Origin: Aeromicrobium sp. Leaf350
GTDB lineage: Bacteria; Actinomycetota; Actinomycetes; Propionibacteriales; Nocardioidaceae
Length of the DNA stretch: 64,000 bases
Direction of reading: 5' to 3'
NCBI RefSeq assembly: GCF_916858655.1
Contig: NZ_CAKASL010000001.1
Coordinates: 1,674,001-1,738,000, forward strand
A program made the position numbers and the translations under genes. The notes under the pieces are model-generated. The model ran no database searches and was not told the origin of the DNA. It saw only the letters and a list, made by a program, of their open reading frames with translations. Numbering within the stretch: position 1 is the stretch's first letter; every line of letters begins with the position of its first letter. Below are positions 41,108 through 45,832 of this stretch, one piece after another.

Positions 41108-41400
41108 GAGAACCGGTGCTCCGCCAGCCGTGGAGCGTGGCGGGGACAAGCGGGCATGGACCACCCAGCGCGGCGCGGACCGGCGGTGATGCGTTCGGGT
41201 AGCCCGGGCTACCGACGTGCATCACGCCTTGCAGGGTCTGCGGAGAGATGATGCGTTCGGGTGGTCGTGGCGGCCGCATTGCATCAACGCCGGTCCTCGA
41301 AGGTCGAGACGGCAGCGGACCCAGCATCCGGCCCGCTTGCGCCCGTTGTCCTGGCCCGCTTGTCGCCCGCCAGGGACAGCGGTCGCGCTGCGCGCGTCGG
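41108..41400. other. 293-bp convergent gap with repeats
   Basis: Between the stops of the sugar transferase and CHAT genes. It contains GGGACAAGCGGGCATGGACCA-like sequence (41143-41163; matches 26938-26957 except one extra G), a pair of 38-bp hairpin units, and an inverted GCCCGCTTGTC (41354-41364) complementary to GACAAGCGGGC (41145-41155). No gene is visible. The hairpins may also end both transcripts. Confidence 0.65.
41187..41286. repeat. Tandem pair of 38-bp hairpin repeats, copy 2
   Basis: Units at 41187-41224 and 41249-41286, each TGATGCGTTCGGGT plus complementary second half ending GCATCA, spaced 62 bp. The first contains the perfect 14-bp palindrome GTAGCCCGGGCTAC. Same unit length and spacing as the pair at 27020-27120. 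Confidence 0.8.
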
Positions 41401-44226
41401 TCAGGCGTCGTGGAGGACGGTGGCGCCGGCGGCGATGTAGCGGTGGGCGGCCCAGGCCCAGGGGTGGTCGGAGAACTGCTCCGAGACGTCGATGCCGGAC
41501 TGCTGCACCGCGTCGGCGGGCGAGAAGCCGGCGACGAGGTGCTGGTGGAAGCTCGTCGCGAAGGCCAGGGCGACGGAGTCGTCGACGGGCCACGTCGTGG
41601 CGACCACGCCGCGGGCTCCCGCCGCCAGCAGCGCCCACGTCAGGCCGACCGACTCGCTCGTGGTGTCGTGGGCGCGTCCCGTGGCGCAGGCGTTGAGGAT
41701 CACGAGGCAGCCGCTGAGGTCCATGCGGAGGATCTCGCCCGCCGTGATCCAGCGGTCGCCCAGCCGCAGGCCCGAGCTCGAGGGGTGCTCGGGCCAGTAG
41801 AGCCCGTGGCACGCCAGGTGCACGACGTCGTGGTGCGGCGCCAGCCGCCAGAGCGACTCGACGGAGGCGTTGCCCCCCGTGAGGATCGTGGCGTCGGGAT
41901 GGATCGCCGCCAGCGCGCGTGTCTCGTCGGCGATGCGGGGCGCGTTCGCGTCGGGCACCATCAGCGCCAGCAGGTGGGAGCGCCTCGTCGACGCGCCGCC
42001 GTCGTCGGAGCACATCGAGGTCAGGTCGTGCATGCCGGCGGCGAAGCGCAGCGAGAACGCGGCCGCCAACGTGCGACCGCCGAAGGGCAGCGCCTCGAAC
42101 GGGACGGGCTGCAGCGACCCGGGGGCCACGACCACGAGCGGCATCTCCTCGAGGTCGGCCATCAGGTCACTGATCGGCCACAGGAGCAGGGTGGCGAGCG
42201 TGTGGAGGCTGTGGTGACCCGCCCACCCGGAGCCCGGCCCGGAGCCGGAGTCGGGTCCGACGTCCGGCTCGGCGTCGCGCTGCACCCGCGAGCACTCGGC
42301 GTGCCACTCGGCGATGGCCGTCTGCACGTCGGCAGACGCACCGACGAGCCGGCGCGCGTAGACCTGGCCCTCTCGGATGACGAACGCGACGAGGTCGGGG
42401 CCGAGCTCGTGGAGCTGGAGCACGGGGCCCTCGGGGACCGGCGGCAGGGCGACGGCGTGGTCCTCGGTCAGCGGCAGGCGGGCGTGCGGGATCTGCTGTC
42501 GGATGTCGCGGCGCACGGCGACGTGGGTCGCGCGGATCGCGGCGAGGTCGATCTCGCCGGAGGGGTCAATCAGGTGGTCGAGGGCCTGTGACAGGGTCTC
42601 GAGCTCGGCCTCCCGGTGCACCGGGAGCAGCAGCGCGTCCTGGGCGGAGCGGGGGTGCTGGTTCGCGGTGGAGGCGAGGTCGCTGAGGCTCCGGGCCTTC
42701 GTGACCGCGGCCCATCGCCACGCCTCGGTGACGGCCTCGGGCGTGCCGATGTCGAGCAGGAGCTCGAGGAGGGCGCGGTCGGCCGCGGCGATGACGAGCA
42801 GGTGGGCGAGCGGACGGTACGCACCGTGCACGTGGACCGTCGGTGAGCTGGCGGCGGTCAGAGCCGCGCGGATCTCGTCGACCGCGCCGCGAAGGTCGAG
42901 CTGGAGCTGCAGGACGCGTGCCGTCGTCACAGCACGAGCGACCTCGAGACCGTTGAGCTCATGGGTCGTGATGAGGCGTCGAGCCGCGTCGAGGTGACGA
43001 TGGGCCTCGGCGCCGTGGGGCGCCGACAGGGCCGCAGCGAGCTCCGCGATGGCCAGCAGGGTGTCGTCACCGCTGTCGTGAGCCATGGCCTGGGTGAGCG
43101 CGCTGAGCCGCCGGGCCTGTTCCAGGGTCTCGCGGCCGGTGCCGACCAGGAGCGTGCTGAGTCGCAGGAGGGCGATCTCCTGCTGGTGGCGCCGCGAGGA
43201 CGTCAGGCGCTCCGCCAGGTCGATCTCGCTCGACGCGACCGCCGTGTCGCCGATCACGAGGCCGGCGAGGCCGGACACGACGTTGGCCTGGGCGGTGCCC
43301 TCGACCCGGTGCAGGCGAGTGAAGATCTCGCCAGCAGCTCGCGCCTCGAGCCGTGCGTCGTGGGCGAGGCCGGCCTGGAGCAGGGCCTCGGCCATCGCCA
43401 GGTCCAGCTCGGCGACCTCGGGCAGGAGGCCCCGCTGCTCGAAGACCGGGCGGACGTCCTCGAGCAGGTGGACGGCCTGCGGCACCCGGTCGAGGCGCAC
43501 GTAGGCCCGCGACAGGGTCAGGGCGCACCGTGCGGCCGCGACGGGCTGACCCAGGCGGGTCAGCTCCTGCCGGGCCCGCAGCAGGTCGTCGAGGGCACGG
43601 TGCGTCATGTCGAGGCTGAGGTACGAGGCAGCCCGCTCGCACGCCGTGCGGGCAGCGAACGCGGCGTCGCCGAGGGAGTGGAAGCGGTTCCACGCGAGGT
43701 CGTAGTGGTGGAGCGCGCGGCCGTGCTCAGCCCGCGCCGCCAGGGACAGACCCATCTGGCGGTGCACCCGCGCCCGGATCAGGACGACCTGGCTCCCGTC
43801 GAGCGCGGCGGGCGTCGAGGCGGGGAGGTCGTCCAGCACCCCCTCGAGGAGGTCGACCGATCGCTGCGCGTCGCCGTTCAGGCGCAGGAGCCGCGCTCGC
43901 GCGATGTCGGTGGAGTACGTCTCGAGGACGAGTCCGGCCGCGAGGAGGTCGTGCCGGGCCGCCTGGATCGCGCCGCCGGCCCGTTCGTAGTCGCCGAGGT
44001 CGCCGAGGATCTGGGCGCGCATGAGGGACGCGCGGCCGCTCACGGCCGGGTCGGCGTGGCGCAGTCCGGCGGAGTGCATGCCGTCCAGCAGACGCAGGGC
44101 CGAGCGGGGGTCGGCCTGGCGGCGACGCTCGGCCTCACGCAGGGCATGACCATCCGCGCCACCCGCACTCGTGTGCGATGCGGCGAGTCCGGGCTCCCCC
44201 CCGGGTCGTCGTACGGTGTCGGTCAC
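41401..44226 (-). CDS. TPR-CHAT caspase-like protease
   Basis: 941 residues. The N-terminal ~620 residues are helical, Ala/Leu/Arg-rich repeats of TPR type (ALRLLDGMHSAGL, RASLMRAQILGDLGDYERAGGAI, RAARCALTLSRAYVRLDRVPQAVHLLEDV). The C-terminal ~290 residues are a CHAT domain: VVVAPGSLQPVPFEALPFGG, then the catalytic His H807 in HLACHGLYW and Cys C847 in ILNACATG, and the closing GARGVVATTWPVDD segment. Both catalytic residues are present, so an active cysteine peptidase is expected. It lies seven bases after the anti-sigma-like gene in a sigma/inhibitor/protease operon. CHAT proteases are clan CD relatives of separase; some cleave a partner to trigger a response. Confidence 0.9.
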   Translation of the reverse strand: MTDTVRRPGGEPGLAASHTSAGGADGHALREAERRRQADPRSALRLLDGMHSAGLRHADPAVSGRASLMRAQILGDLGDYERAGGAIQAARHDLLAAGLVLETYSTDIARARLLRLNGDAQRSVDLLEGVLDDLPASTPAALDGSQVVLIRARVHRQMGLSLAARAEHGRALHHYDLAWNRFHSLGDAAFAARTACERAASYLSLDMTHRALDDLLRARQELTRLGQPVAAARCALTLSRAYVRLDRVPQAVHLLEDVRPVFEQRGLLPEVAELDLAMAEALLQAGLAHDARLEARAAGEIFTRLHRVEGTAQANVVSGLAGLVIGDTAVASSEIDLAERLTSSRRHQQEIALLRLSTLLVGTGRETLEQARRLSALTQAMAHDSGDDTLLAIAELAAALSAPHGAEAHRHLDAARRLITTHELNGLEVARAVTTARVLQLQLDLRGAVDEIRAALTAASSPTVHVHGAYRPLAHLLVIAAADRALLELLLDIGTPEAVTEAWRWAAVTKARSLSDLASTANQHPRSAQDALLLPVHREAELETLSQALDHLIDPSGEIDLAAIRATHVAVRRDIRQQIPHARLPLTEDHAVALPPVPEGPVLQLHELGPDLVAFVIREGQVYARRLVGASADVQTAIAEWHAECSRVQRDAEPDVGPDSGSGPGSGWAGHHSLHTLATLLLWPISDLMADLEEMPLVVVAPGSLQPVPFEALPFGGRTLAAAFSLRFAAGMHDLTSMCSDDGGASTRRSHLLALMVPDANAPRIADETRALAAIHPDATILTGGNASVESLWRLAPHHDVVHLACHGLYWPEHPSSSGLRLGDRWITAGEILRMDLSGCLVILNACATGRAHDTTSESVGLTWALLAAGARGVVATTWPVDDSVALAFATSFHQHLVAGFSPADAVQQSGIDVSEQFSDHPWAWAAHRYIAAGATVLHDA

Positions 44227-44233
44227 GTCGTCA

Positions 44234-44833
44234 TCAGGTGTCAGAACCCAGGTCCAGCCTCGCGTGCAGGGAGGCCGTCGGACTGACGACCCAGACCTCG
44301 TCGGTGGCGCGCGCCACGTCGGTGAGCCGGAACTCGCCGTCGACCTCGGGTCGGGCCACGCGTCGGGCGGTGGGGTCCGGGGACGAGAGCACGATCTCGG
44401 GGCGCGGCTCGCTGCCGTCCCAGGTCAGGAGCCCGTGGACGTCGACGAGCTCGGGGCGCCGGTGCAGCACCGAGAGGGTCAGGGTCACGCCGCTGCCCTC
44501 GAGCACGACGTGGCCGACGCCCTCGCCGTCGGCGGAGCGGGCGCCCGAGGCGACGCGCAGCGGACGTGGGTCGCCGCTGAGCTCGGAGACGGGACCGGTG
44601 CCCGGAGGCATCGTCGAGTGTCGGCGGAAGGCGTCGCGCAGGTTCTGGCGGACCTCGGACGGCGGGCTCTCCAGCGGCATCGAGGTGCCCGCCTCGCGGA
44701 AGGACCGGATCCACTCGACGGCCTCTGCCGCGCTGGGGGTGGAGTCGACGTGGGCGCGCACCGACGCGGCCGCGGCCTCGTCGAGACGGCCGTCGACCCA
44801 GTCGAGCAGGGTCGTGAAGGAAGGATTCGTCAT
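44234..44833 (-). CDS. Anti-sigma-like protein without zinc motif
   Basis: 199 residues from the ATG at 44833, overlapping the sigma gene stop by four bases. The N-terminal ~65 residues (TTLLDWVDGRLDEAAAASVRAHVDSTPSAAEAVEWIRSFREA) follow the helical spacing of anti-sigma (ASD/zf-HC2-like) domains but have neither the His nor the CxxC. A linker with RRHSTMPPGTG leads to a C-terminal beta-rich domain (~110-199; VGHVVLEGSGVTLTLSVLH, VDVHGLLTWDGSEPRPEIVL). No membrane segment. It probably binds the sigma factor, and is the natural candidate substrate of the CHAT protease encoded next. That role is inference. Confidence 0.7.
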   Translation of the reverse strand: MTNPSFTTLLDWVDGRLDEAAAASVRAHVDSTPSAAEAVEWIRSFREAGTSMPLESPPSEVRQNLRDAFRRHSTMPPGTGPVSELSGDPRPLRVASGARSADGEGVGHVVLEGSGVTLTLSVLHRRPELVDVHGLLTWDGSEPRPEIVLSSPDPTARRVARPEVDGEFRLTDVARATDEVWVVSPTASLHARLDLGSDT

Positions 44834-45519
44834 GCCAGGTCCTCCGTCATGAGGGTGCGGAGCCGCTCGAGGCAGCGCCCGCGCAGCGGACCGATGCCGC
44901 CGATCGAGCGCCCGAGTCGCGTGGCGATGTCGGCGTAGCTCGGCTCCTCGGGGTCGAAGTAGAGTGCGAGCAGGAGCTCGCGGCAGGTGCCGCCGAGGGT
45001 GGCGAGCGCGTCGTGCACGACGGTCTGCGTGTCCCAGAGCTCGTACGGGTCCTCCGTCGCAGGCTCGACGAGCGCCTCGAGCGGGAGGTCGCGGCGCGAC
45101 GTCGAGCGCACCCGCCAGGCCTGTCGGCGGGCCACGGTCATGAGCCACGATGCGAGGCGCTGGTCGTCCTCGAGCCGGTGCAGCGCGTCGATCAGCGCCA
45201 CGAACGTCGTCTGCGTGACGTCGGCGGCGTCGTCGCGACTGAGGCCGTTGCGCAGGGCGACGGAGAACACGAGGCGCTCGTAGCGCTCGACCAGGAGGTC
45301 CCACGCCGCGGCGTCGCCGGCGCGACATCGCTGCAGGAGCTCGGGGTCGGTCGGCGCGGCGAGCGCGCGGCGGATCGGCTTCGCGGGTCGGCGACGGCCG
45401 GCGCCGCCGGGCTCGGCAGGACGGAGCGGTACGACGTCACCCACGGTGGCCCCCGACCGCGGACGGCGCGCCGGTGCGACTCCGCCACGGATGTCGACGA
45501 GGTTGAGGGCGTGGTGCAC
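44830..45519 (-). CDS. ECF-type RNA polymerase sigma factor
   Basis: 229 residues from GTG 45519; GTG 45444 (204 residues) is an equally possible start with a G-rich stretch upstream. Sigma region 2: LLQRCRAGDAAAWDLLVERYERLVFSVALRNGLSRDDAADVTQTTFVALIDAL and LASWLMTVARRQAWRVR. Region 4: HDALATLGGTCRELLLALYFDPEEPSYADIATRLGRSIGGIGPLRGRCLERLRTLM. Typical ECF length with no C-terminal extension. First gene of a three-gene operon with an anti-sigma-like protein and a TPR-CHAT protease. Its own promoter target is unknown; a self-controlled operon would be usual. Confidence 0.9.
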   Translation of the reverse strand: MHHALNLVDIRGGVAPARRPRSGATVGDVVPLRPAEPGGAGRRRPAKPIRRALAAPTDPELLQRCRAGDAAAWDLLVERYERLVFSVALRNGLSRDDAADVTQTTFVALIDALHRLEDDQRLASWLMTVARRQAWRVRSTSRRDLPLEALVEPATEDPYELWDTQTVVHDALATLGGTCRELLLALYFDPEEPSYADIATRLGRSIGGIGPLRGRCLERLRTLMTEDLA

Positions 45520-45832
45520 AGGGACTCAGAGGGATCGTGCGCGATCGAGCAGCGGGGGCGCAGTTCGCGCAGGCCTGGCCGTCGTCAGCGGTCTGCGGCC
45601 CATGATGCGACGGGGCCCCGTGACGGGTCAACGTCGAGATGGGCCAACTCGCCTGAGGGCGCACGACGGACGGGGGCTGCGCTGCACCCATCGCACGACC
45701 CCCATTGCCCAGGTTCGGCCGCACTGTCGGACCGACTCACCTGCTCAACGATCGGGGAAGTTGAAAGGTTTGCAACTTCAAGTGACAAAATTGCGGATGT
45801 GAGGCAAGTCTCGCGTCGGTCGGTGTGTCGCG
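45520..45832. other. 313-bp gap upstream of the sigma operon
   Basis: Lies between the sigma factor start and the stop of a leftward membrane-protein gene. About 65 bases around 45745-45810 are strikingly A/T-rich for this window and contain the palindrome at 45757-45779. A GGCCCAT (45598-45604) / ATGGGCC inverted repeat is further downstream. I see no gene; this should hold the promoter of the sigma-inhibitor-CHAT operon on the minus strand, but no consensus element is convincing. Confidence 0.55.
45757..45779. promoter_or_regulatory. Palindromic operator-like site upstream of the sigma operon
   Basis: GAAGTTG (45757-45763) and CAACTTC (45773-45779), perfect 7-bp arms with a 9-base centre, in a locally A/T-rich region about 240 bp upstream of the sigma factor start. 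Size and shape suit a dimeric repressor such as MarR or TetR types. It could alternatively be the 3' hairpin of the membrane-protein gene, but no T tract follows. Confidence 0.45.

Follow-up and report, generated by a model that had tools for sequence, protein, structure and literature searches.

A sigma factor, anti-sigma-like protein and TPR-CHAT peptidase operon in Aeromicrobium sp. Leaf350: a candidate CRISPR-independent proteolytic sigma switch

Three genes of Aeromicrobium sp. Leaf350 encoding an extracytoplasmic function (ECF) sigma factor, a soluble anti-sigma-like protein (the middle protein) and a protein with tetratricopeptide repeats (TPR) and a caspase-like CHAT domain form one operon, which we regard, with a probability of about 0.5, as a proteolytic sigma switch that is independent of CRISPR. 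The operon is located on the minus strand of a 64,000-nucleotide stretch of contig NZ_CAKASL010000001.1 (positions 1,674,001 to 1,738,000; the window), where it spans 45519 to 41401 in the order sigma factor (44830–45519; 229 residues as listed, with an uncertain GTG start), middle protein (44234–44833; 199 residues) and TPR-CHAT protein (41401–44226; 941 residues). The sigma gene runs 4 bases into the middle gene (44830–44833), the ATG of which lies in this overlap with the sigma stop, and a 7-base gap (44227–44233) separates the middle gene from the CHAT gene. A first-pass annotation of the sequence had described this layout with the same overlap and gap, and had suggested that the peptidase, once activated, cuts the middle protein and thereby releases the sigma factor; its observation is right and the mechanism is plausible. 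The basis consists of gene order, homology, fold prediction, conserved catalytic residues, an invariant arginine (Arg99) in the middle protein, and a gene set that recurs in other genomes.

The conservation of the gene neighbourhood is far beyond chance. Relatives of the CHAT protein were found in 84 out of 246 genomes of the family, with full-length orthologues mostly in one other genus. Sixteen loci with full-length orthologues were fetched, one of which is truncated by a contig end; in all 15 complete ones the sigma and middle genes lie beside the CHAT gene (three-gene or window type). More distant CHAT proteins are part of a four-gene set of sigma factor, middle protein, S8 subtilase and CHAT protein: the first three were present in 22 of the 23 family-level loci with distant CHAT that were not cut by a contig end (L059–L081). 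Seven congeners possess a CHAT protein of the other, non-window type, and all five congener loci that were fetched (L030, L031, L033, L062, L067) include sigma and middle genes, three of these loci lying between carB and a guanylate-kinase-like gene. In the wider order, sigma and middle genes accompany CHAT in 9 of 17 loci, and a scan of genome contigs with the CHAT protein returned two distant loci only. The reverse search used a profile of 37 middle-protein relatives, which matched 56 of 396 sampled Actinomycetota genomes. Among the 40 loci fetched for strong matches and sufficient flanking contig, and thus in a non-random sample, a sigma gene was found beside the middle gene in 38, a CHAT gene in 31 and a subtilase gene in 30 (within about 8 kb). 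With the start codon nearest to the sigma stop picked by the analyst, 39 of 45 loci show a sigma/middle gene overlap of 4 or 1 bases. The conserved three-gene order, which the first-pass annotation had named as a test of its proposal, thus holds as a gene set across Actinomycetota.

These data also bear on the idea that the three genes are chance or loosely linked neighbours with separate functions. In line with this idea, no other close copy of the exact operon was found in the genus. However, the gene set turns up again in different families of the phylum, and the host genome (3.5 Mb in three contigs) has 24 matches to sigma region 2 in a profile search but a single one to PF12770 (CHAT), so that a chance meeting would be a rare event. 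Because of the recurrence we reject chance neighbourhood, which we consider most improbable.

An ECF/CHAT/subtilase neighbourhood and its proposed proteolytic control are already known from the ECF54 group of sigma factors. A review from 2022 describes the neighbourhood with CHAT and subtilase genes and proposes control by proteolysis (PMC8999054, section 3.3), depicting this control as one without an anti-sigma factor. As summarized in that section, neighbours of ECF54 genes encode CHAT, subtilase and carboxypeptidase domains (Huang 2015 and Casas-Pastor 2021, via PMC8999054). The gene context of our operon agrees with this description, in that an actinobacterial ECF sigma gene adjoins a CHAT gene and relatives of the operon carry a subtilase gene; the likeness is judged from gene context. 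What the ECF54 literature calls a 'carboxypeptidase' probably corresponds to the middle protein: CarboxypepD_reg, the name of a non-enzymatic domain, is matched weakly by its relatives and probably explains the term. Unlike the ECF54 loci, the window operon is devoid of a subtilase gene, as is the whole host genome according to a profile search with PF00082, and the middle protein here is anti-sigma-like. Within the openly accessible literature, the anti-sigma-like middle protein, the three-gene variant, the invariant arginine and a promoter motif described below appear to be new.

In the relatives that have the subtilase, its S8 catalytic triad is conserved in the alignment (Asp 67/68, His 68/68, Ser 67/68). 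A distant family, f21, combines a middle protein having the window-type N-terminus with the gene order sigma, middle, CHAT, S8, and sigma factors of window-type and f21 loci form one clade (25 rows, SH-aLRT 99). Given this order, N-terminus and common sigma clade, the window operon looks like an older module in reduced form, without the subtilase. The switch model of the first-pass annotation has to be qualified accordingly: the neighbourhood and its proteolytic control had been described before, and most relatives possess a second protease of which the three-gene form is deprived.

The middle protein contains zero cysteines and no obvious transmembrane segment. Its N-terminus matches the zinc-binding anti-sigma model zf-HC2 below the cut-off (E 0.009; 16.5 bits versus 22.2), and the His/Cys ligands of the zinc-binding anti-sigma (ZAS) type are absent. 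This result excludes only the zinc subtype, since zinc-less anti-sigma domains (ASDs) exist. An AlphaFold2 model built on a 29-sequence alignment (mean pLDDT confidence 84) predicts four N-terminal helices (residues 6–73; 44615–44818), a linker and a beta-sandwich (residues 106–192; 44258–44518), with pLDDT values of 93–98 for residues 1–50, about 80 for residues 51–70 and below 50 in the linker (76–94). A Foldseek search of the Protein Data Bank (PDB) with this model places the anti-sigma factor ChrR, bound to its sigma factor, at the top (E 0.0098, probability 0.91). VIA-align likewise ranks ChrR first (model 1–75 versus ChrR 4–74; Z 8.8, 71 residues, root mean square deviation 10 Å), and the rows right beneath it are tied and match the beta domain. 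By contrast, PDB sequence searches with middle-protein alignments retrieved no anti-sigma match; fold comparison alone produced one. A stretch in the N-terminal domain, LvDWvEGRL, is conserved among middle proteins. Based on the model and on the homologues residing next to sigma genes, the middle protein is probably an anti-sigma-like factor with a zinc-less helical domain; we use the term anti-sigma-like because the sequence signal is weak and the zinc ligands are missing. With ChrR of the ChrR/RpoE pair and other soluble ASD anti-sigma factors it would share a helical anti-sigma fold at the N-terminus and a beta domain behind it. It differs from ChrR by the lack of zinc ligands, by a beta-sandwich in place of a cupin, and presumably by its mode of release, which is oxidation in ChrR and would be cleavage here.

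The third gene encodes a clear CHAT protein (residues 673–928 versus PF12770: E 3.7e-40, 138.6 bits, cut-off 24; 41443–42210). Its putative catalytic residues, claimed to be intact in the first-pass annotation, are indeed in place: His807 (codon 41806–41808) within HLACHG and Cys847 (codon 41686–41688) within LNACATG. All 91 aligned CHAT relatives have Cys847, and 90 of them have His807; therefore CHAT peptidase activity appears to be under selection. In the AlphaFold2 model (pLDDT 78) the CHAT domain is preceded by a long TPR superhelix (residues 24–581; 42484–44157), delimited by model secondary structure and TPR matches, which presumably serves as sensor or partner-binding part. The top fold match of the model is Csx29 (Z up to 27.5), including Csx29 bound to Csx30 (8eey); human separase is a strong match as well, and 8rw5 and 8rot, which their depositors named 'transmembrane anti-sigma factor DdvA', also rank among the best. 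When the PDB is searched by sequence with the CHAT domain, DdvA again comes out first (E 2e-13), with the His and Cys motifs aligned.

Both Csx29 and DdvA are connected with sigma factors. In the type III-E Craspase/CASP system, target RNA bound by Cas7-11 triggers Csx29 to cleave the sigma inhibitor Csx30, which would release CASP-sigma; Csx30 is cut at residues 427–429, which belong to a C-terminal-domain loop, and none of its residues is essential for the cut (PMC10028731). The window operon has the same parts, namely a TPR-CHAT peptidase, a sigma inhibitor (as proposed) and an ECF sigma factor. In view of the location of the Csx30 cut and its independence of any single residue, however, the analogy concerns the logic and not the site. 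The inhibitors also differ in size and domain make-up, and we reject the operon as a member of type III-E CRISPR systems: the CHAT protein scores 27.8 and 30.3 bits against the Csx29 model (cut-off 300), which no protein of the host genome exceeds, a profile search revealed no RAMP gene in this genome, and there is no CRISPR-like repeat array around the operon (window 30000–58000). The statement of the first-pass annotation that CRISPR genes are absent is thus borne out. DdvA, the anti-sigma factor of the ECF sigma factor DdvS in Myxococcus (PMC4374960), provides the second precedent, as DdvS of M. xanthus is controlled by a CHAT-domain protein. DdvA is a single transmembrane protein, whereas in the window operon the anti-sigma-like protein and the CHAT protein are separate and soluble. 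Such a natural fusion of anti-sigma function and CHAT supports a functional link between the separate middle and CHAT genes. In the type III CRISPR system CalpL/CalpT/CalpS, a Lon-type protease triggered by cyclic oligoadenylate reportedly cleaves an anti-sigma-like protein and frees a sigma factor. Release of sigma by proteolysis of an anti-sigma-like protein is what we propose here, too, but the Lon-type fold of CalpL is unrelated to CHAT.

A candidate site of cleavage emerged from the alignment of 89 middle proteins. Arg99 (codon 44537–44539), at the end of the low-confidence linker, is kept in all 88 proteins having that column, within a pattern of approximately [LA]-x-G-V-R-[GSA]. The other equally conserved positions (Gly134, Gly166, Phe168) all belong to the beta domain. 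Spacing is variable on both sides, with 31 to 48 residues between Pro58 and Arg99 and 8 to 17 between Arg99 and the column of the first beta-strand. As an invariant residue within a flexible linker of variable length, Arg99 resembles a short linear motif. It is missing from a single middle protein, L121, in whose genome no CHAT gene was detected. Separase, like several other clan CD peptidases, is known to prefer arginine at P1. Judged by these patterns, Arg99 is a candidate P1 residue of the predicted CHAT cut; alternatively, it could have a role in binding.

The sigma factor itself is readily recognized as ECF-like, in agreement with its initial assignment: it matches Sigma70_r2 (E 6.5e-12) and the ECF superfamily model TIGR02937 (65.4 bits, cut-off 42.9; E 4.7e-18) above the cut-offs, while its region 4 remains below the Pfam threshold, and it falls into a clade with sigma factors of other sigma-middle-CHAT loci. 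As region 2 begins only at residue 76 of the listed frame, the true start may be downstream of the GTG at 45519.

Taking these data and the predicted protein structures into account, we infer sigma binding, signal sensing, cleavage and its site as follows. The ECF sigma factor would be held by the zinc-less anti-sigma domain at the N-terminus of the middle protein. On sensing a signal, the TPR part of the CHAT protein would activate the caspase-like domain, which would then cut the linker between the two domains of the middle protein, most likely after Arg99. Once loosened, or broken down further, the anti-sigma domain would set the sigma factor free to transcribe its target genes. The conserved neighbourhood, the ChrR-like N-terminus, the catalytic residues, the resemblance to Csx29 and the example of DdvA all fit the switch model.

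Several observations weigh against this mechanism. The zf-HC2 signal in the middle-protein family is confined to 2 of 16 members (E 0.006–0.009), constituting weak sequence evidence, and the fold match to ChrR, at 10 Å over 71 aligned residues, is modest. Middle proteins of four-gene variants have a shorter helical part without the long helical bundle. In 7 of the 40 loci sigma and middle genes occur with no CHAT gene nearby, the respective genomes in several cases having CHAT elsewhere and in two cases none detectable, and in L131 and L137 extra middle genes adjoin CHAT without a sigma gene of their own. Arg99 is kept in one of these genomes, G651, in whose 240-contig draft assembly CHAT was not detected, and because no Csx30 residue is essential, the analogy does not call for an invariant P1 residue. 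The weak anti-sigma signal, the four-gene variants and the extra middle genes beside CHAT/S8 would be compatible with a model in which CHAT, together with S8 where present, degrades the sigma factor itself, with the middle protein serving as adaptor or cofactor. Control of this kind is what the ECF54 review proposes (PMC8999054). Nevertheless, we consider direct degradation of sigma unlikely: the middle gene stays beside the sigma gene even in the seven loci without CHAT nearby, the window-type N-terminus is predicted to fold like ChrR, and DdvA unites anti-sigma function with CHAT. Furthermore, endopeptidases of clan CD as a rule cut at specific sites instead of degrading their substrates.

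Upstream of the sigma genes of non-window-type loci we found a promoter-like motif, GTATCA-N15-[GA]CTCCT, which is present within two mismatches in 28 of 60 upstream regions versus 1.8% of shuffled ones and whose half-site spacing peaks sharply at 15. Loci with the motif include L061, L066, L068, L069, L071, L078, L080, L081, L136 and L140. It also precedes some S8 genes, is located directly after CHAT, ahead of a small conserved protein, in several loci, and occurs before ATPase-type regulator genes in three genomes of 8–10 Mb (L109, L113, L143). The motif is probably the promoter of this sigma family and a candidate regulon signature. By contrast, it is absent upstream of the window sigma gene (best 5 mismatches) and was found in 0 of 14 window-type loci within 2 mismatches at standard spacing. 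Unguided dyad counting was uninformative in this GC-rich sequence.

Since the sigma gene shares this motif with the gene that follows CHAT and with some S8 genes, sigma probably controls its own locus in the four-gene relatives. This would also suit a different model: sigma drives expression of CHAT as an effector, for instance a protease acting in cell death or defence, with the middle protein as its inhibitor, chaperone or substrate-recognition partner. CHAT proteins are effectors in other systems, the defence-library model BovA yielded weak matches (PADLOC), and the distribution is patchy, with the exact operon lacking from 48 congeners. Yet the core set is without a toxin, nuclease or membrane effector, CHAT is tightly linked in an operon with an anti-sigma-like protein, and no defence model reached a convincing PADLOC score, for which reason we rejected assignment to a known defence system. 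We therefore regard an effector role of CHAT as improbable and favour release of sigma by cleavage of the middle protein.

The absence of a near-copy of the operon from 48 other genomes of the genus suggests that it was acquired horizontally. A second ECF sigma factor is encoded in the same genome (G000:C1:866424–867029; L095, L147, L155), which is 77% identical to the window sigma factor over 200 residues and 84% over the tree columns. It stands without an adjoining middle or CHAT gene; its neighbours encode a HAD/PNKP-type phosphatase and a protein with a helix-turn-helix-like N-terminus. Given two such similar sigma factors and no close copy of either in the 48 congeners, one anti-sigma-like protein may control both sigma factors of this genome.

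Further features were noted in and around the loci. A perfect 7-base inverted repeat, GAAGTTG-N9-CAACTTC, in an AT-richer region upstream of the window sigma gene (45757–45779) is a possible operator. Two 38-base repeats with palindromic ends (TGATGCGTTCGGGT...TGCATCA) resembling repetitive extragenic palindromic (REP) elements (41187–41224 and 41249–41286) are situated between the end of the CHAT gene and a sugar transferase gene. A family of proteins of about 100 residues (FRRRGLGLSRWQV...FLVF...LRLVRRR) is encoded near CHAT in L059, L066, L068, L069, L071, L075, L079 and L081, usually right after it; in several loci the sigma-type promoter motif precedes the gene. The family has no Pfam match; it resembled chagasin at first sight and may be a protease inhibitor, a reading that Pfam and PDB searches did not support. 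L131 and L137 contain S8-middle-CHAT cassettes repeated around a single sigma-middle pair. In the congener locus L031 (6196–7431; genome G005) sigma and middle protein share one frame of 412 residues, with part of sigma in another frame, which is probably due to a frameshift and not a real fusion.

If the switch model is correct, ECF54-like sigma factors, so far believed to have no anti-sigma factor, would be given one, and their 'carboxypeptidase' neighbour would have to be re-read as that factor. Arg99 would be a single-residue and directly testable cleavage site. It is tempting to speculate, albeit tentatively, that CRISPR-independent sigma switches of this kind are widespread in Actinomycetota, with a separase/caspase-like TPR-CHAT protein cutting a so far unrecognized anti-sigma factor at an invariant arginine, and that Csx29/Csx30/sigma is a captured relative of them. 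If the switch model holds, Csx29 and DdvA would also belong to a larger group of sigma switches under the control of CHAT proteins.

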